Source: Serratia plymuthica (GTDB taxonomy: Bacteria > Pseudomonadota > Gammaproteobacteria > Enterobacterales > Enterobacteriaceae). From it: DNA of 64,000 nt. Below the pieces are notes generated by a model that was not told where the DNA came from, made no database searches, and saw nothing but the letters and a program-made list of their open reading frames with translations. The translations under genes were made by a program, and so were the position numbers. This document shows, one piece after another, positions 1 through 52,046 of the stretch. The stretch lies in NCBI RefSeq assembly GCF_018336935.1, contig NZ_CP068771.1, positions 1,798,001 through 1,862,000 on the forward strand. The letters run 5' to 3'. Position 1 is the first letter of the stretch, and each line of letters starts with the position of its first letter.

Positions 1-128
1 AGCAGCAGTCGCTGTATTTTGCTTAACGATGGCACGTTATGGCTACGGGGCGAGATATCTGGACGGAGCATATGAAAGATGTACCATCTAAGTGCTGACA
101 AATATCTCTATGGATATCAGATATAATT

Positions 129-161
129 AACGCGGCAGTCTAAAATCTTGATTGCCGCGTT
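129..161. terminator. Hairpin 3' of the first small gene
   Basis: Nine-base arms AACGCGGCA and TGCCGCGTT enclose a 15-nt loop. There is no clear U-run on either side, so it is a weak candidate terminator for the minus-strand gene ending at 179 or for a gene entering from the left edge. Bases 1-94 are open in one frame without a start and could be the tail of an upstream gene. Confidence 0.35.
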
Positions 162-178
162 CTGATACTGAGGGGTAT

Positions 179-418
179 TTAAGCTAATTGTGTAGTAACA
201 CAAATTTTGTGAGTCCGGTGAGAATTCTCAATTTCCCAAAAGATGTGTTGAATTTTAGTAATCTTTACGTTTTTTATTGATTCGCTATGATTTAAAGAAT
301 GCCCACTGATCTCATCACCTACATTTAATGCACCAAAAGGCGTGCTACTTTCATACAAACCCGCAACGCATGAAAGATCTTCCGGGTCATAGATCTCCAA
401 AATATACTGTGTTTTCAT
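179..418 (-). CDS. Hypothetical protein, 79 aa
   Basis: I do not recognise this protein. It has no signal peptide or membrane segment. The first half is acidic with a GLYESSTPFGALNVGDEI segment, which could be a small beta-rich fold; the second half is basic and mixed. Codon use is AT-leaning like the two genes upstream of it on the same strand, so it probably belongs to the same accessory island. It lies 263 bp downstream of the Abi_C-like gene, a gap in which I see no gene, so co-transcription is uncertain. It could be an accessory part of that module or an unrelated cargo gene. Confidence 0.5.
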   Translation of the reverse strand: MKTQYILEIYDPEDLSCVAGLYESSTPFGALNVGDEISGHSLNHSESIKNVKITKIQHIFWEIENSHRTHKICVTTQLA

Positions 419-681
419 TCTTTATCCCTATGTTAATCATCGGTTCTATGCTGTTTCTTGTCGATAGTACACTTTTATAGGGGAGTGGAACAGTGCATAA
501 GATACTTTGTGTGTATGCAAGTCATTCCCAGGCAAAGGACATTCTGGTTATATTCAGTGTTCGGTGCAAATACATGCAAGATTGGCTGACTGGTAGCCAA
601 GCTAGGAACAGCATAAACTGCTAAGTCTGATGGTTAACTAATCAGTCGGTGTGCCGTATTACCTTTTGTACCAGTAAGATA

Positions 682-1443
682 TTAACTTTTTTCTTTAAGA
701 TTTAGCCAAGTGCTGATAAGGAACAGGGCCATAGATCCTGATAAGTTTACGGCTAATTCTGCATGTCTTGGATATGGCTTCGTTGATGATCTATTCTTTC
801 CGTGAGCATCACCTAGTTTATTGCGAAGAGTGCCTAAGCCATTTACAACTGCGGAACAACCGCCAAGAATCTGTTTGAAAATACTCTCAGTATGTTGGTC
901 GGCCGATAAATTAAGTTCTTTTGATAGTATTTTATAAAGCTCTGACATTTCTATGTTTTTATTATTGTACGCCACTCCCATATCATCCAGAATGTGTTTG
1001 CAAACGGTTTCTATAAGTGTTCTTGCAGATGTTATTGCTCCATCTGGATCTGTATGGCGTCGTTCTAGCGCTTTCGCCCAAACAGTGTGGACACTATCCT
1101 CATCAAATCTCCTTAACACATTAGAAATGTCTTCATCCGCTGGGGTTTTATTTTTTCCTTCTAAATAGTCTAAGAGGGGCTGAAAAGCTTTATAAATGAT
1201 TTCTCTGCGAGGATCATACTTTTCGGTTTTTTTTATATATCCCCAGAATTCTTTTAAGGAGCGGTTAGTTCTTACAAAATCAGGTAAGAGCTGTAGCAAT
1301 GATTGATTTTGTAGGAAATAAGTTCTTAGAAGTAAATAATCAGAATTAGCCTCATCTTGGGCACCAGTAGCTCTTGCGATCATTATATTTTGGAGCGCTT
1401 CTGCGCGTTCTAGGTCGTTTTGCAGAGTATCTATAATATTCAT
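682..1443 (-). CDS. Abortive-infection C-terminal (Abi_C) family protein, HEPN-like
   Basis: 253 aa. The N-terminal ~120 residues are helical and unassigned. From about residue 131 the sequence TDPDGAITSARTLIE, followed at 202-215 by GLGTLRNKLGDAHG, is the signature of the Abi_C family found in phage-exclusion proteins. R207-N208 and H214 give an R-N-x5-H arrangement that fits the Rx4-6H motif of HEPN ribonucleases; that it cleaves RNA is inference. It sits 69 bp downstream of the GHKL-ATPase/nuclease-like gene on the same strand and probably shares its transcript. The ATG at 1443 has only a weak ribosome-binding site. AT-rich codon use marks it as acquired. It could be the effector of a two-gene defence module. 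Confidence 0.75.
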   Translation of the reverse strand: MNIIDTLQNDLERAEALQNIMIARATGAQDEANSDYLLLRTYFLQNQSLLQLLPDFVRTNRSLKEFWGYIKKTEKYDPRREIIYKAFQPLLDYLEGKNKTPADEDISNVLRRFDEDSVHTVWAKALERRHTDPDGAITSARTLIETVCKHILDDMGVAYNNKNIEMSELYKILSKELNLSADQHTESIFKQILGGCSAVVNGLGTLRNKLGDAHGKNRSSTKPYPRHAELAVNLSGSMALFLISTWLNLKEKS

Positions 1444-1512
1444 TTCAATTTTTTAACCAATCAGATGGAAATTTCTAAATCTATAATTCAACCCAGCGTA
1501 TAGCTAGCTCCC

Positions 1513-3531
1513 CTAGGCGGAAGGCAGTCCAAGCTTATCGAAGAATGCCCGGTTACGCTCTTTGGCCGCTTTCACTAACTGGTCAAAACTAATCACTTCT
1601 ATATAGGCATGAGAAGGTTCGTTGTAACCGAAATAGCCCATTCCATCAGATGTGATCCGTAAGTTGGCTCGACGACAGCGCCGATGCATAGATTCAGTGA
1701 GGTCACAAAGTACATAACAATAACCTGGTATATCATTATTGCCCGGAATAGGGCGACCGGATTTTGTAGTGACTTTTCCCTCACGTATCCGCTCTAAATA
1801 GCTGAGCGCTTGATCAATAGGGTCTTTATCTTCGCCTTCTCGCATATCATTACGCATGGGGCGTTTAATTTCGATAACAGTAATAGCAGCAAGTGGGAAG
1901 CTGCTCTGGTCGTTAACAAGAAAAGGATTATCAAACACCCTCAGGCTGAGCAAGTCTGGCTCTTTGGTTGAGTCATTGCCAGTGATTGGCATTGAGTTGA
2001 GCGTTTTATCAGAAGACAAATAATTATGAAATGCCAAGCGTTCATCGATCAACCAAAGGTTGCAAGAGTCTAGGAAAACCTCAGCTGAATCTTTGCGCAT
2101 AGGCATGATTAGCTCGTGAATCATATCTTCACGGGCGTACTTTCCATCTTCTAGCCGCTCGATAGATTTTTGTAGCAGGTCGATAATTACCTTGCGATGA
2201 GAAATATAATTGGCAAGGTCTGATTTTTTAAGGTCTCCAGCTTTGCGTAAGTACTCACCTAGCCGTTCCATGTATTCCTCTACATGTTCCTTGTTCTGAG
2301 GTTGCATGATGTCATGGCCTTCGCTCACTAACTGACGTTCCACCTCATACCACTGAGCGTGCAGGTGTAGCTCCAGCTCTTTATCTGATTTTTCAGGGTC
2401 AACGATCAGTAATTCTTCTGCAACATAATTGGCAATGGGGCGATAGCGTGGCGCATGAGTGTTGATGAAATCATCTACTCGTCTGCGACCAGCCGACACA
2501 TTTTCTGTCAGGACATCTTGCAGATACTCTTTAGTACGCGTTAATACAGCTTCCCGAATATCTTTAAAACTCACTTCGTTGAGTATGTCCTCAACATCTT
2601 CTGCAATATCAAAAGAAATACGTTCACTGCGAACGTGTTGATTAAGGTAGTCGGAAGATACATAGCAGGTATAAGTGAATTCACCAGAAGCGTCTGAAAT
2701 TTTTCCGTACAGGCCGGGAAGTTTTCCCTGAATAGATTCTTCTTTAACCAGTCGATTGGCTGCGCAGAGTGCCAATTGATGTTTTTTATTAACGGATGCG
2801 CGAAACTTGATATGGGTTAAGTCGAATTGGTAATCACGAATTGTAATGGTTTCGAGAAATGCGCTGGCATGCATATGCTCTTCAAGCAAATGGTCAAGGT
2901 CAAAAACCTCGTCCGCGTCCTCTAGAAGTATCTTGGGTGCACTTCCCTGTCGCACAAAATACCAGAGCACATGTTCGAGCAACTGATTTGCTATGGACTG
3001 GCCTTTTGCAGGAACCTGCTTTCGAAAGCTTTCATCATAATCAACCAGCTTGATAAGAGTGCCTGGCTTTTGAGATGTAGCCTCTACAACCTTTTCACCA
3101 TGGACTCCTGATTTATCGTTGAAGCGAAATACGCGCTTTTTAAGCTTACCATCAACATCGAAAAAGTGGCTTTCCACTTCGACCAGAGCAAAGACTTTCA
3201 GCCACATCAGGCGACCAACCCCCCGGCACCCCTTGTCAATCTTATGGTCCGAATCGAGAGTTTTAAATGACTTAAAGTTAGCCTCGTCAAAACCACAGCC
3301 ATTATCGGTGATGGTAAAACTGACGATTGGAGGCTGGGACTTTGTGTCTAGATCCAGACTGCCTTGAGAGGCGCGATTGATGCGGAGAACAATCTTTCCT
3401 TCGGAGGCATTATCCATTTCTTCAATAGAATGAATGGAGTTTACTACTGCCTCAAATACTGGCATTAGGCCATGACTTTTCGGCAGCGAGGTATTTCGCA
3501 GACGCCCCTTTAAATTTGTTTGTAAACTCAC
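1513..3531 (-). CDS. GHKL (Hsp90/MutL-like) ATPase with C-terminal PD-(D/E)XK-like domain
   Basis: 672 aa from a GTG at 3531, chosen because AAGGGAGG lies 7 nt upstream; an in-frame TTG at 3555 would overlap that site. The N-terminus is a GHKL ATP-binding fold: N-box FEAVVNS (E27, N31), ATP-lid start TDNGCGF (D76, G78, G80) and GCRGVGRLMW (101-110). The middle ~250 residues are helical, possibly coiled-coil. Near the C-terminus VIEIKRP (E554, K556) followed by DQALSYL (Q574, Y578) looks like the ExK...QxxxY core of PD-(D/E)XK nucleases such as DUF4263/Shedu. ATP-gated DNA cleavage is inference. The Abi_C gene follows in the same direction. No named defence system is recognised with this pairing, but I could not search. 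Confidence 0.7.
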   Translation of the reverse strand: MSLQTNLKGRLRNTSLPKSHGLMPVFEAVVNSIHSIEEMDNASEGKIVLRINRASQGSLDLDTKSQPPIVSFTITDNGCGFDEANFKSFKTLDSDHKIDKGCRGVGRLMWLKVFALVEVESHFFDVDGKLKKRVFRFNDKSGVHGEKVVEATSQKPGTLIKLVDYDESFRKQVPAKGQSIANQLLEHVLWYFVRQGSAPKILLEDADEVFDLDHLLEEHMHASAFLETITIRDYQFDLTHIKFRASVNKKHQLALCAANRLVKEESIQGKLPGLYGKISDASGEFTYTCYVSSDYLNQHVRSERISFDIAEDVEDILNEVSFKDIREAVLTRTKEYLQDVLTENVSAGRRRVDDFINTHAPRYRPIANYVAEELLIVDPEKSDKELELHLHAQWYEVERQLVSEGHDIMQPQNKEHVEEYMERLGEYLRKAGDLKKSDLANYISHRKVIIDLLQKSIERLEDGKYAREDMIHELIMPMRKDSAEVFLDSCNLWLIDERLAFHNYLSSDKTLNSMPITGNDSTKEPDLLSLRVFDNPFLVNDQSSFPLAAITVIEIKRPMRNDMREGEDKDPIDQALSYLERIREGKVTTKSGRPIPGNNDIPGYCYVLCDLTESMHRRCRRANLRITSDGMGYFGYNEPSHAYIEVISFDQLVKAAKERNRAFFDKLGLPSA

Positions 3532-3646
3532 GGCGCAGCCTCCCTTTTTAGCCAAGAAACTCGTGCAGCTACTCTATAGGTAAGATGCTAAATGATACCA
3601 CGACTTACTGATTTACATATCATTTTATGGGTTGGAGCTTATAGGG

Positions 3647-3956
3647 TCAAATCCATAGCGCCAACGGCGATTTAGGGGCTGATTGAGAGTGTAAGTATCC
3701 CCACATCATGACCTTTTGCTCCTTGAGATAAGTTGCATGGTTGTATGTTCGGTGAACATTGTTTGTATCAGCATGTGTAAGTTGAGCCTCAATATTCACC
3801 CAACGCAAACATGCTGGATTTACCGTTGAGTTTAAACCGATAGCGCCATGCCTTTTTGCCATTGGGTTTCACTTCGAGGTAGAGTCCATTGAAATCATTG
3901 AGCCGATAGAGTTTTTCTTTCGGCTTGGCAGTGCGGCATTGCGTGTCAGTGAGCAT
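3647..3956 (-). pseudogene. P4-type tyrosine integrase, internally deleted
   Basis: The first part (from an ATG at 3956) encodes an Arm-type DNA-binding domain typical of P4-like integrases, ending at ALGEY followed by a stop near 3790. In another frame, from about 3805 to 3647, lies a typical integrase C-terminus with IEAQLTHADTNNVHRTYNHA, which carries the box II histidine and probable catalytic tyrosine. About 300 residues between them, including the catalytic Arg and HxxR, are missing and the frames do not match, so the enzyme is dead. It marks the right edge of the island beside ychF. No tRNA att site is visible. Confidence 0.8.
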
Positions 3957-4086
3957 AACGGGGCCTTGTTTATTTATTATACCGTTGTTGTACTCACTTA
4001 AAATGAAGATGGAAGAATGTTGCACTCATCCATGTACTCATTTTTGACTGCTTTGTTACGAGATGAGTTGAGACGCTATGAAATGA

Positions 4087-4112
4087 AAAATCCACGCCAT
4101 TGCGTGGATTTT
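4087..4112 (-). terminator. ychF terminator
   Basis: Perfect 11-bp stem (AAAATCCACGC / GCGTGGATTTT) with a 4-nt loop, 59 bp past the ychF stop. The T-rich continuation reads best on the minus strand. Next to it, ttatgaggttt (4111-4121) and aaacctcataa (4145-4155) form a second, looser inverted repeat of unknown role that might be part of an attachment site. Confidence 0.6.
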
Positions 4113-4170
4113 ATGAGGTTTGCCCGTCTTTATGAGATTCACTAAAACCTCATAAGACAACAGCTGAAGC

Positions 4171-5262
4171 TTAGACGTTGAACAGGAAGTTCATCACGTC
4201 GCCATCTTTAACGACGTAATCTTTGCCTTCTGAACGCATCTTGCCGGCTTCTTTGGCGCCTTGCTCACCCTTATAGGTGATGAAGTCTTCGTACGCGATG
4301 GTTTGCGCGCGGATAAAGCCTTTCTCGAAGTCGGTGTGGATTTTACCGGCCGCCTGCGGGGCGGTAGCGCCCACCGGGATGGTCCAGGCGCGCACTTCTT
4401 TTACGCCGGCGGTGAAGTAGGTTTGCAGATTCAGCAACTCGTAACCGGCGCGGATCACGCGGTTCAGGCCCGGCTCTTCCAGGCCCAGCTCGGCCATGAA
4501 CTCGGCGCGGTCTTCATCTTCCAGCTCGGCGATGTCGGATTCCACGGCGGCGCACACGGCAACCACTACGGAGCCTTCGGCTGCGGCGATTTCACGCACT
4601 TTGTCCAGGTACGGGTTGTTCTCGTAACCGTCTTCGTTGACGTTGGCGATGTACATGGTCGGTTTCAGCGTCAGGAAGCTCAGGTAGCGGATGGCCGCTT
4701 TGTCTTCTTCGGTCAGGTCCAACGCGCGCAACATACCGGCGTTTTCCAGCTGCGGCAGGCATTTTTCCAGCGCGGCCAGTTCGGCTTTCGCGTCTTTATC
4801 GCCGCCTTTGGCTTTCTTCTGCACGCGGTGGATTGCGCGTTCGCAGGTGTCGAGATCCGACAGCGCCAGCTCGGTGTTGATGACTTCGATATCATCAGCC
4901 GGATCAACCTTGTTGTTCACATGGATGATATTGTCGTTTTCGAAGCAGCGCACCACGTGGCCGATTGCCTCGGTTTCACGGATGTTGGTCAGAAACTGGT
5001 TGCCAAGGCCTTCGCCTTTGGATGCGCCCTTCACCAGGCCGGCGATGTCGACGAATTCCATGGTGGTTGGCAGGATGCGCTGAGGCTTGACGATCTCGGC
5101 CAGCTTGTCCAGACGCGGATCGGGCATCGGCACCACACCGGTATTAGGTTCAATGGTACAGAACGGGAAGTTGGCTGCTTCGATACCCGCTTTGGTCAAC
5201 GCATTGAACAGGGTGGATTTGCCTACGTTAGGCAGGCCGACGATACCGCATTTGAATCCCAT
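4171..5262 (-). CDS. ychF: Redox-regulated ATPase/GTPase YchF (OLA1 family)
   Basis: 363 aa, the usual family length. YchF is a ribosome-associated Obg-family P-loop NTPase that prefers ATP and modulates translation and the oxidative-stress response. The P-loop GLPNVGKS is at residues 9-16 and the G3 region is [10 protein letters not shown]; a coiled-coil insertion and C-terminal TGS domain ([14 protein letters not shown] onward) follow. In E. coli it is in an operon with pth; here a divergent SulP gene separates them, so it must have its own promoter in 5263-5636. Confidence 0.97.
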
Positions 5263-5636
5263 GTTGTTATCACCTTAAATATCTTAACTATCAGCTGGTT
5301 AGGGTTAACCCGCTGCATAAATGGCAAAATAATGCGGCCATTATACACGTAATGGGCGTTTATCTCGATCTGACTGTGTACTCGTCATGCTTGCCGCCCT
5401 GATGCAACTCCAGGTATGGCGGATACACAGGAAAGACGGGTAGGTTGGCCGGTTTTCGATTGAGATTTGGATCACATTTACACATACTGCGCTTCTGATT
5501 AACCTACAGGAAACGCGCCGGTGTCCTTCTTGCCCAGCCCCCCTGAGTTGCCTCTCTGCCGCGGTTTGCCGCGCCATACGGCCCTGGTTCCTGTTCAGCG
5601 GGGATGTCTTTTTGAACTGTCAGAAGCGAATCATTC
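5263..5636. other. Divergent intergenic region ychF / SulP
   Basis: 374 bp without a supportable gene. It must hold the promoters of ychF (minus) and of the SulP gene (plus). The segment around 5388-5425 (cttgccgccctgatgcaact) resembles one end of the palindromic repeat seen at 9621-9743 and may be a degenerate copy. Nothing else recognised. Confidence 0.4.
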
Positions 5637-7166
5637 ATGTTTAACCTGAGCAATGTCAGGCTGTCGGACGTCAAGAACGAGGTCCTGGCGGGCTTTGTGG
5701 TGGCGGTATCGATGATCCCGGAAGCGGTCGGCTTTTCGCTGGTCGCCGGGCTTTCCCCGATTGTCGGGCTGCACACCGCCTTTATTATCGGCCTGGTGAC
5801 GGCGTTGTTCGGCGGCAAGCCGGGCATGGTGTCGGGCGCAGCCGGTTCTATTGTGGTGGTGCTGATGAGCCTGGCGGCGCAGCACGGCATGGGATACGTA
5901 CTCTGGGCGACGATTTTCGCCGGCGTGATCCAAATCCTGATCGGCGTGTTCCGGCTGGGCAAGTTTATTCGGCTGGTGCCGTTGCCCGCCATTCACGGCT
6001 TTGTTAACGGCCTGGCGATTGTCATCATGCTGGCGCAACTGCATATGATTGCCGGGCAGGGGCCGCTGATGTACGGGCTGGTGGCGCTGGCGATCCTGGT
6101 GGTGGTGTTCTTCCCCCGGCTGACGCGAGCGATCCCGGCTTCGCTGGCGGCACTGATCGCGGTTTCCGCATTGGCTGTCGGGCTTAATCTGCATACGCTG
6201 CGGGTTGGCGATCTGGCGGATATTTCCGGTGCCTTGCCGCATTTCAGCCTGCCGATGGCGCCGTTCAACCTGGAAATGCTGAAAGTGGTGCTGCCGTACG
6301 CGTTAGTGATCGCCCTGGTCGGCCTGATTGAATCGCTGTTGACCATGACGGTGCTCGACGAAATGGGCGGCAAGAAGGGTAACGGCAACCGCGAGAGCAT
6401 CGCTCAGGGGGCGGGCAACACGATTTGCGGCCTGTTTGGCTGTTTTGCCGGCTGCGCGATGATTGGGCAATCGATCATCAACTTCACCTCAGGCGGCCGT
6501 GGGCGCATTTCCGCCGTGGTGGGCGCGTTGTTATTGATTTTGTTCGTGGTCAGCCTGTCGGGTTATATCGGCCTGCTGCCGGTGGCGGCGTTGGCCGGGG
6601 TCATGCTGGTGGTGTGTTACAACACCTTTGAATGGAGTTCGCTGCGTCGTCTGCGCCGCATGCCGAAGATGGACGCGCTGGTGATGCTGCTGGTTACTCT
6701 GATCACCATCTTTACCGATCTGGCGGTGGCGGTAATCAGCGGGGTGATTATCTCGGCGCTGGCGTTTGCCTGGCAGCAGGCGCGCATCCGCGTTCGTCAG
6801 CGCCAGGTAGAGGGCGATGTGGCGGTGTATCAACTCGACGGCCCGTTGTTTTTTGGCTCCACGGCGGCGTTTGCCGACCTGTTTGAGCCGAAGAACGATC
6901 CGCAAAGCGTGGTGCTGGATTTTGCCGGTACCCGGGTGATGGATTCCAGCGGGGTGGAGGCGATCGATAAGCTGACGGCGCGTTATCTGGCGGCGGGGAA
7001 ATCCATCCGCCTGCGCCATCTGAGCGGCGATTGCGTACGGCTGCTGAAACAGGCCGGCCCGTTTTGCAGCCATGAGCTGGACGACCCGCAATATTATGTA
7101 GCTGAAGAAGGGTATCAGACCGATGACAGTAACCTCGGCGAAGAAACCTTCAAGGTGCGGACGTAA
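5637..7166 (+). CDS. SulP family anion transporter with STAS domain
   Basis: 509 aa inner-membrane protein. The N-terminal ~380 residues form the SulP transmembrane core (PEAVGFSLVAGLSPIVGLHTAF and GLIESLLTMTVLDEMGGKK are family hallmarks), and about residues 395-490 form a C-terminal STAS domain (VVLDFAGTRVMDSSGVEAI). SulP proteins carry sulfate, bicarbonate or dicarboxylates; the substrate here cannot be read from sequence. It is clearly distinct from DauA at 17284-18972. It lies convergent to pth and divergent from ychF, splitting two genes that form one operon in E. coli, which suggests insertion of this gene. Confidence 0.9.
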   Translation: MFNLSNVRLSDVKNEVLAGFVVAVSMIPEAVGFSLVAGLSPIVGLHTAFIIGLVTALFGGKPGMVSGAAGSIVVVLMSLAAQHGMGYVLWATIFAGVIQILIGVFRLGKFIRLVPLPAIHGFVNGLAIVIMLAQLHMIAGQGPLMYGLVALAILVVVFFPRLTRAIPASLAALIAVSALAVGLNLHTLRVGDLADISGALPHFSLPMAPFNLEMLKVVLPYALVIALVGLIESLLTMTVLDEMGGKKGNGNRESIAQGAGNTICGLFGCFAGCAMIGQSIINFTSGGRGRISAVVGALLLILFVVSLSGYIGLLPVAALAGVMLVVCYNTFEWSSLRRLRRMPKMDALVMLLVTLITIFTDLAVAVISGVIISALAFAWQQARIRVRQRQVEGDVAVYQLDGPLFFGSTAAFADLFEPKNDPQSVVLDFAGTRVMDSSGVEAIDKLTARYLAAGKSIRLRHLSGDCVRLLKQAGPFCSHELDDPQYYVAEEGYQTDDSNLGEETFKVRT

Positions 7167-7174
7167 TAGCGGCA

Positions 7175-7199
7175 CGCAGCGGGCGGCATGCCCGCTGCG
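7175..7199. terminator. Hairpin between convergent SulP and pth genes
   Basis: Perfect 10-bp GC-rich stem (CGCAGCGGGC / GCCCGCTGCG) with loop ggcat in the 40-bp gap between the two stop codons. No long U-run, so it may act as a bidirectional transcript-end barrier. Confidence 0.5.
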
Positions 7200-7206
7200 G
7201 TAACTC

Positions 7207-7797
7207 TCAGGCCTGCGCCTTGAAGCTGTGCAGGCGGCGAACGGTTTTTTCCAGCCCGTCGGTCAGCAGCACTTCAGTGCAGCGGGCGGCTTCATCTATC
7301 GCTTCATCAATCATTTTTTGCTCGCTGGCCGGTGGCTTGCCGAGCACAAATCCTACCACCTTGTTTTTATCGCCCGGATGACCAATGCCAATGCGCAAAC
7401 GGTAGAAGTTCGGGTTATTGCCGAACTTGTTCTGAATATCCTTCAGCCCGTTGTGGCCGCCGTTACCGCCGCCGAGTTTTATTTTGGCGATGCCCGGCGG
7501 GATATCCAGCTCGTCATGCGCCACCAGGATTTCGTCCGGCTCAATGCGGTAGAAATTGGCCATCGCCAATACCGCTTTGCCGCTCAGGTTCATAAAGGTG
7601 GTCGGCACCAGCAGCCGCACGTCGTTGCCCGCCAAATTGAGCCGCGCGGTATAACCGAAGAATTTGCTCTCTTCCTTCAATTGCTGGTTATGGCGTTGAG
7701 CCAGCAAATCTACGTACCAGGCGCCGGCGTTGTGCCGCGTCTGGGCATATTCAGCGCCCGGATTCGCCAGGCCGACTATCAATTTAATACTGCTCAC
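7207..7797 (-). CDS. pth: Peptidyl-tRNA hydrolase
   Basis: 196 aa (E. coli 194). It hydrolyses the ester bond of peptidyl-tRNAs that drop off ribosomes, recycling tRNA in the cytosol. The active-site set is visible: N12 and H22 in [18 protein letters not shown]70 in TTFMNLSG and D95 in AHDELDIP. The C-terminal lid [23 protein letters not shown] is intact. It is divergent from ychH as in E. coli, but separated from ychF by the SulP gene. Confidence 0.98.
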
Positions 7798-7997
7798 TGG
7801 GAAATTCGCTATGATCGAGATAATGGAAAGGGCATTAGTCTACCTGCCGCCGCCGCGAATGACAAAATCCTGATGCCCAACCCCGGCGTATTGATTCAGC
7901 GATAGGCTGAAAATTAAATTATTCATTAGAAAAACCATTCAATTTGTTGGCTAACAAACCGGATAAGGTAAAGATTTGTCACGTTTTCTTTACCATT

Positions 7998-8041
7998 TGT
8001 GATCGTCTCCGCAAACCCCTTGTCGGACCAGGGACTATACT
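7998..8041 (+). promoter_or_regulatory. Class II CRP-dependent promoter of ychH
   Basis: TGTGATCGTCTCCGCA (7998-8013) matches the CRP consensus TGTGA-N6-TCACA at 8 of 10 positions. A -10 TATACT is at 8036-8041, which predicts transcription start near 8048 and places the CRP centre at about -42, the class II position. E. coli ychH is known to be CRP-activated. The pth/ychH gap (7798-8112) holds nothing else recognised. Confidence 0.55.
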
Positions 8042-8112
8042 TAACTTATCAAAGAGGGTTAACCCTTTGCTGAGTTATCCCGGTTGGCATACAGCACTAT
8101 GGAGGTGACAAA

Positions 8113-8391
8113 ATGAAACGTAGAAACGCGTGCAGAATGGGCAACTTTTTTATGGGGCTGGGGCTGGTCGTGATGATCGGCGGTGTCGGATACAACATTC
8201 TTGCTGAAGTATCGCAGCTCGATTTACCGCAACTTTTCGCCCATGGCGCCGTCATGAGTATTTTCGTCGGTGCGTTGCTGTGGCTGGTCGGTGCGCGTAT
8301 CGGTGGCCGCGAGCAGGTTGCGGATCGCTACTGGTGGGTAAAACACTTTGATAAACGCTGCCGCAACGATCAACATCGTTCGCAGCATTGA
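8113..8391 (+). CDS. ychH: Stress-induced inner-membrane protein YchH
   Basis: 92 aa with two predicted membrane segments (MGLGLVVMIGGVGYNILA and GAVMSIFVGALLWLVGARI) and a basic, His-rich tail. YchH of E. coli is a small inner-membrane protein induced by stress and CRP-cAMP; its molecular role is not settled. A good Shine-Dalgarno (GGAGGTGA) precedes the ATG. Position next to pth matches E. coli. Confidence 0.93.
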   Translation: MKRRNACRMGNFFMGLGLVVMIGGVGYNILAEVSQLDLPQLFAHGAVMSIFVGALLWLVGARIGGREQVADRYWWVKHFDKRCRNDQHRSQH

Positions 8392-8475
8392 TTAAAAAAA
8401 CAGAAGGGAAACGGCATTACGGCAAAGGAGATCTGCCGCGTACTCAGGTCTGGGACCATGTTTGACTACGAGTAG

Positions 8476-8510
8476 AAAACCCGTTGCTGCTTGCGCACCA
8501 ACGGGTTTTT
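8476..8510 (+). terminator. Terminator after ychH
   Basis: Stem AAAACCCGTTG / CAACGGGTTTT followed by TCTTTTTCT. It lies between the convergent ychH and prs genes and could serve both strands because both arms start with A/T runs. Confidence 0.85.
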
Positions 8511-8576
8511 CTTTTTCTGCTGCCGGGCAATAGATTCTTCCGGTACGGCAGGGCGCCGCACCGAAAAGAAAATGAA

Positions 8577-9575
<999 letters not shown>

Positions 9576-48999: not shown

Positions 49000-49614
49000 T
49001 TACGAACCTTTACATAAATCATCTAATATTATTTTTGATGAGGTTATGTAGCGTTCTATATTACATATTTGCCCCCGTCGTGTTGTCGCTAAATATGCAC
49101 CGGGTGTTATGTGGTTTTGAGCCCCATAAACAGTTCTTATTAATGCGCGAAAATCATCCCTGGCTGATTTGCTGCGATGTGCTAATACATTTCTGACAAT
49201 TCTCATTTCATTAATTAAATGACTGTGTATATTTACATTTTTTATATAAAAATCGTTTTCATCAATGACGTACTTTACACTGTCTGTTATATATTTTGCC
49301 TTGGTCCACTTCAAATTCATAATGGGTTTTTGACGGCCAAATGTTAAAAAAAGATTGCGTGCCCCAGCAATGCTTTTGCATTTTACAAAAGTAATTGGTT
49401 GTGTAGTATTGGTATAGCATGCCCCAGAGGCCACTTTGAAAGCTATTTCTGAAATGTGTAATTCTAATATTGAAAATGCTCTTAGCATAATCATTTCGGA
49501 TATAATGTGTTGATGCCTGGCATCTAATAAAATGCACTCTCTTCTATACCATAACAAGCGATCCAATGCATAATGTGAGTTTCGTAATGTGATACTCAAT
49601 TTAGGTATGGGCAT
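49000..49614 (-). CDS. HEPN-domain protein partnered with DUF262
   Basis: 204 aa from the ATG at 49614, whose A is the last base of the DUF262 stop (TAATG), so translation is coupled. Mostly helical. RNVLAH at residues 141-146 is a canonical HEPN Rx4-6H motif with the polar residue after Arg. It resembles HEPN families known to sit beside DUF262 genes (MAE_28990-type or RiboL-PSP-HEPN), from memory. Predicted ribonuclease effector of a toxin-antitoxin or abortive-infection pair; activity is inference. AT-rich codon use. Confidence 0.7.
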   Translation of the reverse strand: MPIPKLSITLRNSHYALDRLLWYRRECILLDARHQHIISEMIMLRAFSILELHISEIAFKVASGACYTNTTQPITFVKCKSIAGARNLFLTFGRQKPIMNLKWTKAKYITDSVKYVIDENDFYIKNVNIHSHLINEMRIVRNVLAHRSKSARDDFRALIRTVYGAQNHITPGAYLATTRRGQICNIERYITSSKIILDDLCKGS

Positions 49615-50600
49615 TAGAGAAAACCCTTTATATAGTCTGCGCGAATTCTTCTTTGCGCAATCCGTTGAGTTGTCGATGAGCAAGCATTCTGAAATAAAAT
49701 GTCATTTTGAGATTTATTGTCGGAATTAAATCTTGAATCTATTTCATCGATTACTTCACTAATTTTATTTTTGCTCTTAATTTTCATTTCATCAATGATT
49801 AAGAAAAGAGAAAAGAATAGTGGTTGGCGATTGAAGATAGTATCAGAGAACTTTCTTGGCTCAATCTCAGATAGTTTATCGAATGTTGCGTTAAGTCTCT
49901 CTGTTATTTTTGTTTCGTCATTAAATTCGTCATCATACTCTCTGTACATTTTATCTAAATAGGTGTTACTAAAGTCGGATAGTCCATTGATAATATTGTA
50001 AATTAAATCTGAAGTAAATTGAACTTCGTTCATTCTAGATATATCTGTTGACGAGAATATACTATAGTCACGCCAAAAATTTATCCGTGAGGATGATTGA
50101 GTTAAGCAGAATTGTTTCATTTCTCCACTGTATGCAGCATTGCGTTTTTCTTGAGAGTTTAATGACTTGCTGATTGAGTTTATTCGACCGAAGATATCGA
50201 TTACATCACTATCAGATGCACCAAGTAGATAGCCTACAGGTAATGATGTTAATAAGAATTTTTGCCGGTCATCTTGGGTTAATTCATTTATTCTTATTTT
50301 CTTTTTATATTTTGGATGTTTGGCTGGAAACTCATTGTTTGCATAAGAAATTATACTTCGACATCTTTGCTGTCCATCTACAACTTCTTTAATGCTTTTT
50401 GAATTAATTAAATCTAATGAATGTCTAATGTAAATTGCAGGGATAGGTTTTTGTTCGAACATAGTGTTAATTAAATAAGATTTTTGTGCTGTTGTCCATA
50501 CTGATCTGCGTTGGTACCATGGAGCTAAATCAAGTTCATCTGACTTGCGGATGTTTATTAAGTCTTGTACTACTAGCGATTGATAGTCAACTCTATCCAT
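49614..50600 (-). CDS. DUF262 (GmrSD/ParB-like) domain protein
   Basis: 328 aa. N-terminal DUF262 motifs are WYQRRSVWTTAQKSYLINTM (YQRRSVW, residues 29-35) and EVVDGQQR (75-79), the ParB/GmrS-like NTP-binding and DGQQR signature found in defence proteins such as GmrSD and BrxU. The C-terminal half is helical and lacks the DUF1524 HNH domain of full GmrSD, so it is probably a sensor or regulator whose effector is the coupled HEPN protein. AAGGG lies 9 nt before the ATG. An AT-rich palindrome overlaps its promoter. Confidence 0.8.
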   Translation of the reverse strand: MDRVDYQSLVVQDLINIRKSDELDLAPWYQRRSVWTTAQKSYLINTMFEQKPIPAIYIRHSLDLINSKSIKEVVDGQQRCRSIISYANNEFPAKHPKYKKKIRINELTQDDRQKFLLTSLPVGYLLGASDSDVIDIFGRINSISKSLNSQEKRNAAYSGEMKQFCLTQSSSRINFWRDYSIFSSTDISRMNEVQFTSDLIYNIINGLSDFSNTYLDKMYREYDDEFNDETKITERLNATFDKLSEIEPRKFSDTIFNRQPLFFSLFLIIDEMKIKSKNKISEVIDEIDSRFNSDNKSQNDILFQNACSSTTQRIAQRRIRADYIKGFL

Positions 50601-50626
50601 GGCGTAAACCCTTTTTTGTTAGAAGA

Positions 50627-50651
50627 AAAAAGTAATTATAGTTTACTTTTT
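50627..50651. promoter_or_regulatory. Palindrome upstream of the DUF262 gene
   Basis: AAAAAGTAA-N7-TTACTTTTT, 27 bp upstream of the DUF262 start. Possible autoregulatory operator, though the local AT-richness makes chance likelier. Confidence 0.4.
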
Positions 50652-50677
50652 GTTTTTATTCAATTATCTATGGCGGG

Positions 50678-50884
50678 TTAAATTTTGATGTTGTATTGTT
50701 GTATAATATGATGCTTCATGTCGTTGCATAAATTAGTTTTACAATTATAATTATTTTTGTGATATAAGTGGTGGTGATGTGTGTTTTTTACGATGCAGTG
50801 ATATATTTGTTGCCAGTGTTTTTGTGTTAATCTAATTTTTTTTGGTGATGGTGAATATGCGTTTTTATAACGAGATAAAGCCAT
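50678..50884 (-). CDS. Possible small basic protein, 68 aa
   Basis: Open frame of 68 codons, His/Asn/Lys-rich, between the DUF262 gene and the divergent membrane-protein gene. The first ~30 residues (YSPSPKKIRLTQKHWQQIYHC) look protein-like, but there is no clear ribosome-binding site and the rest is low-complexity AT-driven composition. It may not be translated. Confidence 0.2.
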   Translation of the reverse strand: MALSRYKNAYSPSPKKIRLTQKHWQQIYHCIVKNTHHHHLYHKNNYNCKTNLCNDMKHHIIQQYNIKI

Positions 50885-50906
50885 TCAATAATTAAAGGGA
50901 GTGATG

Positions 50907-51362
50907 ATGGATGCTGACATTATTTCATACGAGTCAATGCTCGCAGCTAAGGCTTCAGCTGACTTTGCGTTTTATACTCTTGTTGTGACAGTCGTATCAT
51001 TAATAATTTCATTGATAACCTTAATTTTCGCTAAAAGAGCACTATATACTTGGAAGAAACAATATACCGAAGATAAAAAAATAAAGCTCATTGAGGCACT
51101 TATTAAATTTAACAATACACTTATAATTATGCCAAAAAATTTGAATGATGACGAGGATAATACCCAAAAGAAGATTATAATAGTAGTAATGAGCGAAGTT
51201 CATACAAGATGCATGGTTTATCTCAAGGATAAACCTAATGATGATTTGTCCGAAAATCTTAGGTTGCTAAGAGATAAGTTTTCGGAGTTCCTTAATGGCG
51301 AAGCATATAAGTCTGAGTTGGCGATTGTGACGAATATAATTTTAATGATGAACTTAACATAA
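50907..51362 (+). CDS. Single-pass membrane protein, unknown
   Basis: 151 aa from the ATG at 50907 (AAAGGGA 6 nt upstream; ATG at 50904 and GTG at 50901 are alternatives). One membrane helix at about residues 20-42 (FYTLVVTVVSLIISLITLIFA), then a charged helical cytosolic domain with KKQYTEDKKIKLIEALIKF. Not recognised. Divergent from the DUF262-HEPN pair and equally AT-rich, so it could be a membrane-acting partner of that module or separate cargo. Confidence 0.6.
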   Translation: MDADIISYESMLAAKASADFAFYTLVVTVVSLIISLITLIFAKRALYTWKKQYTEDKKIKLIEALIKFNNTLIIMPKNLNDDEDNTQKKIIIVVMSEVHTRCMVYLKDKPNDDLSENLRLLRDKFSEFLNGEAYKSELAIVTNIILMMNLT

Positions 51363-52046
51363 TTAATGACTGATAGAGATTATAGAGTGTCTTTCTTGCT
51401 GAACTATTCAGAGCTTGGCGATCCTATTGTTAATGAGATTCTATGTATTGAGCATTTAAATAAAAACGTAATAGTAATCCAAATTACAGGGCTGAGCTTA
51501 TGCTTGGCCTTTATCTTTTTAGCCTCAGTCAACCACAATGCAAACACATCCTGCCTCTTACTTCCTTTAACCGCGTCTGCGGCTGCCGGCACGTGTATAG
51601 CGCGAAGAACTGCACCGGTAAAGTGTTAAGTCATCGAGACGCACATAACTGCAAGGTTAAGGATAAGGGGAAGTCTTGGCGCAGTGATATCACAAATCAA
51701 TGTACCTACCTGTCATCCATCCAGTAATGCCACACAGCGGCATTCACCATTGAAAAGTCGATTACAAATCGCGTAATCACAGGGCTGCACTCTAGTGTTG
51801 CCTTTTTGCATTTCAGTCCCAGCGAACACCGCCGTATAGTTGATAGAAGCCGTATCGCCGACCCGTTACGGCTGGTAGCTCAATCCCTCAGCACTGCAAA
51901 TGTACGGCTCCCATATCCCTGCGTGCTCGCATCATTGAAGCGAAACAACAACATGTGGGTTTGCAATACCTTGATCTAAGGCCGTTTAAATTTGCCTGTA
52001 TTGGTTTATTCTTCTTTCCTGTGGATATTCAATAAAGAAGGGAATC
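51363..52046. other. Decayed satellite-like DNA
   Basis: 684 bp with no intact gene. GC content rises sharply around 51500. On the plus strand, overlapping frames between 51530 and 52010 include fragments (for example VRLPYPCVLASLKRNNNMW) that resemble, from memory, Ash/Icd-like leader ORFs of P4-type satellites; they contain stops and frame shifts. Probably remnants of the element that brought the island. Confidence 0.4.

Follow-up and report, generated by a model that had tools for sequence, protein, structure and literature searches.

A probable stand-alone GHKL-Shedu nuclease gene and its Abi_C neighbour in a ychF-linked island of Serratia plymuthica

Architecture and kinship of the GHKL-Shedu protein

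We analysed 64,000 nucleotides of Serratia plymuthica DNA (contig NZ_CP068771.1, positions 1,798,001 to 1,862,000; hereafter the window), near the left end of which two genes stand side by side on the reverse strand. The larger, at 1513..3531 (-), encodes a predicted ATPase-nuclease of 672 residues of the GHKL-Shedu kind (paraMORC3, VcSduA-like); the smaller, at 682..1443 (-), an Abi_C protein of 253 residues, of the AbiJ HEPN type. An earlier note on this DNA placed both genes correctly, including the start at 3531: the open reading frames (ORFs), 3555/3531..1513 and 1443..682, are intact. Our best explanation of the locus, with a probability of about 0.85, is that the larger gene encodes an anti-phage nuclease of the GHKL-Shedu kind that works by itself (paraMORC3; Shedu type I-D, VcSduA-like), and that the Abi_C gene is an independent gene of the same ychF island. 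We favour it because of the identity of the domains, the conserved active-site residues, the match to the Shedu profile, the lack of linkage between the two genes in the loci examined and their separate blocks of DNA homology.

The 672-residue ORF starts with the GTG at 3531; an alternative, earlier TTG at 3555 would add eight residues. Because GGGAGG stands just before the GTG and the relatives begin at the very residue encoded there, the start at 3531 is correct. Promoter-like sites (12, against 10.3 expected; standard deviation 2.9) and terminator-like sites (5, against 3.6 expected; standard deviation 1.8) are about as frequent as by chance.

The protein comprises a GHKL+S5 module (residues ~1-345), a helical middle and a Shedu-type PD-(D/E)XK domain (~455-672). 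The earlier note had proposed both a GHKL ATP-binding site at the N-terminus and a Shedu/DUF4263-type nuclease domain at the C-terminus, and both have held up. Motif conservation was counted over 16 sequences, the window copy included, with identities down to 27%. On the GHKL side, E27, N31, D76, G78, G80, G104, G106 and R107 are kept in all 16 and N77 and G101 in 15; a fold search with the structure model likewise identifies an N-terminal GHKL ATPase, and the Pfam HATPase match is sub-threshold (17.3 bits, cut-off 25). In the putative nuclease domain, D526, E554 and K556 are invariant, and Q574 is found in 15/16. Profile-profile comparison of this domain with Shedu gave 96.6% and a score of 69, where shuffling reached 21.1 at most. 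Such sequence evidence supports a GHKL ATPase fused to a predicted Shedu-type PD-(D/E)XK nuclease domain. No Shedu entry stands among the 50 matches listed in fold searches with the structure model, a weak test since the GHKL domain takes up the list; sequence searches of the PDB with the protein or its profile returned nothing better than E 0.1.

The earlier note did not recognise the pair as a named phage-defence system; the large protein in fact belongs to an already known kind, GHKL-Shedu. According to PMC12137116, VcSduA of Vibrio cholerae has GHKL at its N-terminus and DUF4263 at its C-terminus, is placed in Shedu type I-D and is linked to paraMORC3. It protects infected cultures, alone and at all multiplicities of infection tested, and its activity is abolished by E27A and K557A. 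The window protein shares with it an N-terminal GHKL ATPase, a clamp-like middle, a C-terminal DUF4263-type nuclease and the single-gene layout; the key glutamate is residue 27 in both, the key lysine 557 in VcSduA and 556 here. The neighbours differ: GrwAB adjoins VcSduA, whereas Abi_C, an integrase remnant and ychF surround the window copy.

The same architecture is that of paraMORC3, defined in PMC2292703 as GHKL+S5 plus a C-terminal restriction-endonuclease-fold domain and described there as including some stand-alone members. The window protein has both parts, the latter with D and ExK, and we found no difference from paraMORC3 as described there. Many relatives have restriction-modification (R-M) neighbours, others form a stand-alone subset, and the window copy belongs with the latter. 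Shedu SduA (DUF4263, Pfam SduA_C; PDB 8ti8, 8ps4) resembles the C-terminal domain by profile comparison, but the window protein has in addition its GHKL N-terminal part; a single-sequence scan matched it neither to SduA_C nor to the PADLOC SduA models.

GHKL-Shedu matches occur in 2 of 369 genomes of the class sample and 4 of 295 of the family sample, the own genome counted in each. Viral contigs yielded no relative when scanned with the GHKL protein by itself, and 41 loci when scanned with the GHKL alignment. Distant relatives lie on viral contigs (L089-L125) and in one temperate phage record (L071), where the gene adjoins an integrase and is annotated as an amidase. The copy at L004:8004-10019 contains a stop codon, and that at L022:4457-6483 is broken into two ORFs. 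The last 70 residues show two distinct sequence types among close relatives (L011, L013, L017), as if the C-terminal part of the nuclease domain had been swapped by recombination.

The Abi_C gene and the island at ychF

The assignment of the neighbouring gene to the Abi_C family, already made in the earlier note, agrees with its Pfam match (E 1.3e-21; 76.9 bits, cut-off 24). Its R207-x6-H214 motif conforms to Rx4-6H and is kept in 8/8 Abi_C sequences. With the AbiJ / Abi_C HEPN family (PMC3710099) the protein shares the Abi_C domain, R-x6-H, a polar residue after the arginine (N208) and a HEPN-like helical fold, while its N-terminal ~105 residues were assigned to no named AbiJ N-terminal domain here. 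A PDB sequence search returned nothing better than E 0.5. Relatives occur in prophages, and 4 of 295 genomes of the family sample, the own genome counted, have a match. We regard the gene as an independent neighbour, an abortive-infection gene of the HEPN RNase type with predicted RNase activity. Downstream of it, a 79-residue ORF (179-418, -) matches no family above cut-off.

Both genes have a low GC content relative to the core, as the earlier note had remarked: 0.39-0.45 across positions 1-4000 against 0.53-0.61 across 4001-9000. The dead integrase that it had seen beside the pair is confirmed by DNA comparison with an E. coli ychF-linked integrase (L057). The remnant, at 3704..4000 (-), has an internal deletion: 3793-4000 matches the beginning of that integrase gene at 97% identity and abuts a piece, 3704-3794, that is 82% identical to a stretch near its end, so that ~870 bp between them are absent. 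The mobile setting of the locus is likewise supported. A direct repeat of 102 bp has its right copy at 4081..4182, including the end of ychF, and its left copy outside the window (G000:C1:1793885-1793985); the two are identical at 100 of 102 positions. It follows that both genes belong to an island of ~8.2 kb, bounded by these repeats and located at the 3' end of ychF.

Part of the ychF-integrase stretch is matched in 628 of 5426 E. coli genomes, and among the 30 matches listed all cover ychF and an integrase; the single E. coli ychF island that we examined carries a retron as cargo. In the Serratia island, to the left of the window, lie a SIR2-like fragment (L002:14303-14671; SIR2_2 just below cut-off) and a 431-residue ORF without Pfam or PADLOC family (L002:12373-13668). 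A YhfG-like and Fic gene pair (L002:11029-11871) is found just beyond the left repeat. The window has a second low-GC stretch at 49000-52000 (0.32-0.40).

Two genes on the same strand, 69 bases apart and both from defence-gene families, invite the reading of the earlier note that they form a module, in which the GHKL nuclease would sense phage DNA or cut it, with the Abi_C HEPN protein as a coupled RNase effector. We ran an Abi_C-relative profile and a GHKL-family profile over 127 loci and counted the results without loci of the own genome and duplicates. None of the 78 other GHKL-Shedu loci (23 genome contigs, 11 plasmids, 1 phage record, 3 genome-search loci and 40 viral contigs) has an Abi_C relative, and no GHKL-Shedu relative is present at the 25 other Abi_C loci: the co-occurrence that the earlier note proposed to look for is missing at the loci examined. 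Across the 23 genomes with close GHKL-Shedu relatives (those behind L004-L026), Pfam PF14355 found a single Abi_C gene, in Bartonella, on a contig other than that of the GHKL gene.

The DNA itself parts between the genes. The Abi_C block common to the window and E. coli prophages spans 692-1455; the GHKL block starts at 1506 in one locus and at 1512-1513 or further on in the others, and ends at 3530-3549; the stretch in between, 1456..1505, matches neither set of relatives. Because the homology blocks end there, the two genes look as though brought together from different sources. VcSduA, moreover, acts alone (PMC12137116). On the linkage counts and the separate DNA blocks we reject the two-gene system, which we consider very improbable; most likely, the pair are chance neighbours in a defence island.

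Relatives in restriction-modification operons

We sorted by eye the surroundings of 24 close relatives with at least 65% identity (20 genome-contig loci, L004-L022 and L025; two plasmids, L035 and L038; and two genome loci, L072 and L073), excluding three Bartonella copies (47-48%) and more distant relatives. In 11 of them (L007, L009, L011, L012, L014, L015, L019, L020, L035, L038, L072) the GHKL-Shedu gene comes directly after hsdR-AAA-hsdM-hsdS and closes the series, with a separate Shedu gene between it and hsdS in two (L015, L035). Four others lie beside different R-M or helicase genes: another type I set (L017); an MmeI-like type IIG set accompanied by helicase and GIY-YIG genes (L004); an upstream type III-like gene, one opposite-strand ORF away (L008); and GIY-YIG and Shedu genes plus an ORF that by eye resembles the L004 helicase (L016). 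Of such defence genes, L006 has Shedu alone. No R-M gene was recognised in the remaining eight (L005, L010, L013, L018, L021, L022, L025, L073), of whose neighbours part were scanned, the upstream DNA of L005 being masked and L010 lying at a contig end.

In the hsdR-AAA-hsdM-hsdS operon, hsdS can also be followed by other genes: a SIR2 gene in a Shewanella baltica plasmid and, in a Vibrio campbellii plasmid, a 43-residue ORF that, by its GAGAS stretch, resembles the start of a SIR2 gene. The first 27-30 bases there agree to 93-96% with the hsdS boundary seen in eight further loci. Variants of this slot were seen in L035, L038, L072, L085 and L086. We did not find the arrangement in our searches of open-access papers, a result that holds for those searches alone; the AAA protein of the operon had no match at 1e-80 in the 369 class genomes, a result that shows little alone. 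With one type I family holding GHKL-Shedu, Shedu plus GHKL-Shedu, or SIR2 behind a near-identical boundary, GHKL-Shedu may be a cassette that can be exchanged at the 3' end of R-M operons, its GHKL module being R-M-coupled and its solo copies freed. We offer this tentatively, at somewhat less than even odds.

The window copy itself has no hsdR-AAA-hsdM-hsdS operon nearby, and one may ask if it is a stranded part of an R-M operon, normally working with type I (or IIG or III) proteins and idle without them. The operon-linked relatives just described speak for this, as does the placement of paraMORCs mainly in R-M operons by Iyer et al. in 2008 (PMC2292703); the best HsdM match in the window genome is also weak (E 4.6e-7, 33%). 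Yet the window copy retains its motifs and the ribosome-site-like GGGAGG, eight of the 24 close relatives have no recognised R-M gene nearby, the same operon lacks GHKL-Shedu in two plasmids, and VcSduA needs no partner (PMC12137116). In a tree of 24 proteins, from which L012 and L020 (partial), L004 (stop), L022 (split), L072 and L073 were left out, L005 and L010 form a group with the window copy (99/98), and neither has an R-M gene recognised in the DNA examined. On this tree, three changes account for the type I label (8 rows), and shuffled labels gave an equally low number in 500/500. On balance we hold a stranded, idle copy to be unlikely.

Proposed mode of action and significance

Several points weigh against a stand-alone GHKL-Shedu nuclease. 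The shared strand and the short distance between the genes make co-transcription possible in this strain. The flanks examined vary between ~0.2 and 10 kb and are uniformly short at three Abi_C loci; as some contigs also break off next to the gene, isolated instances of linkage may have escaped notice. The many close relatives in R-M operons leave a stand-alone role less than certain. An earlier profile-profile comparison with a thinner profile was weak (8.5%, E 0.004), and the AlphaFold model of the nuclease part is poor (predicted local distance difference test, pLDDT, mostly <50 at 460-566), so the nuclease fold assignment rests on profiles and motifs. The Shedu models of Pfam, PADLOC and NCBIfam did not match the family, and a PADLOC scan gave a single weak match, to TmtA (0.0028), in 1/16 members. 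Finally, kinship to VcSduA was judged by architecture and key-residue positions.

If the large protein is the stand-alone nuclease that we propose, it would act as a dimer whose GHKL+S5 module shuts like a clamp upon ATP binding, by analogy with MutL, Hsp90 and MORC. The closed clamp would load onto invading DNA, and ATP turnover would then license the C-terminal PD-(D/E)XK domain (E554, K556) to cut that DNA, sparing the cell. Anti-phage activity, which others have shown for VcSduA (PMC12137116), would by analogy extend to the window copy. The Abi_C protein would separately, as an RNase, stop the infected cell.

A striking gene pair thus most likely consists of chance neighbours in a ychF defence island, and naming a false two-gene system is avoided. 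The locus also contributes one more GHKL-Shedu copy, to which none of the libraries searched (Pfam, PADLOC and NCBIfam) gives the label Shedu. The data point as well to a defence slot of varying content that closes a type I R-M operon, and this makes an old question, the relation of paraMORC ATPases to restriction, testable. If the cassette reading is true, the GHKL module would be an ATP-gated nuclease that is coupled to R-M and forms its second line, and solo copies, that of the window among them, would have lost this coupling.
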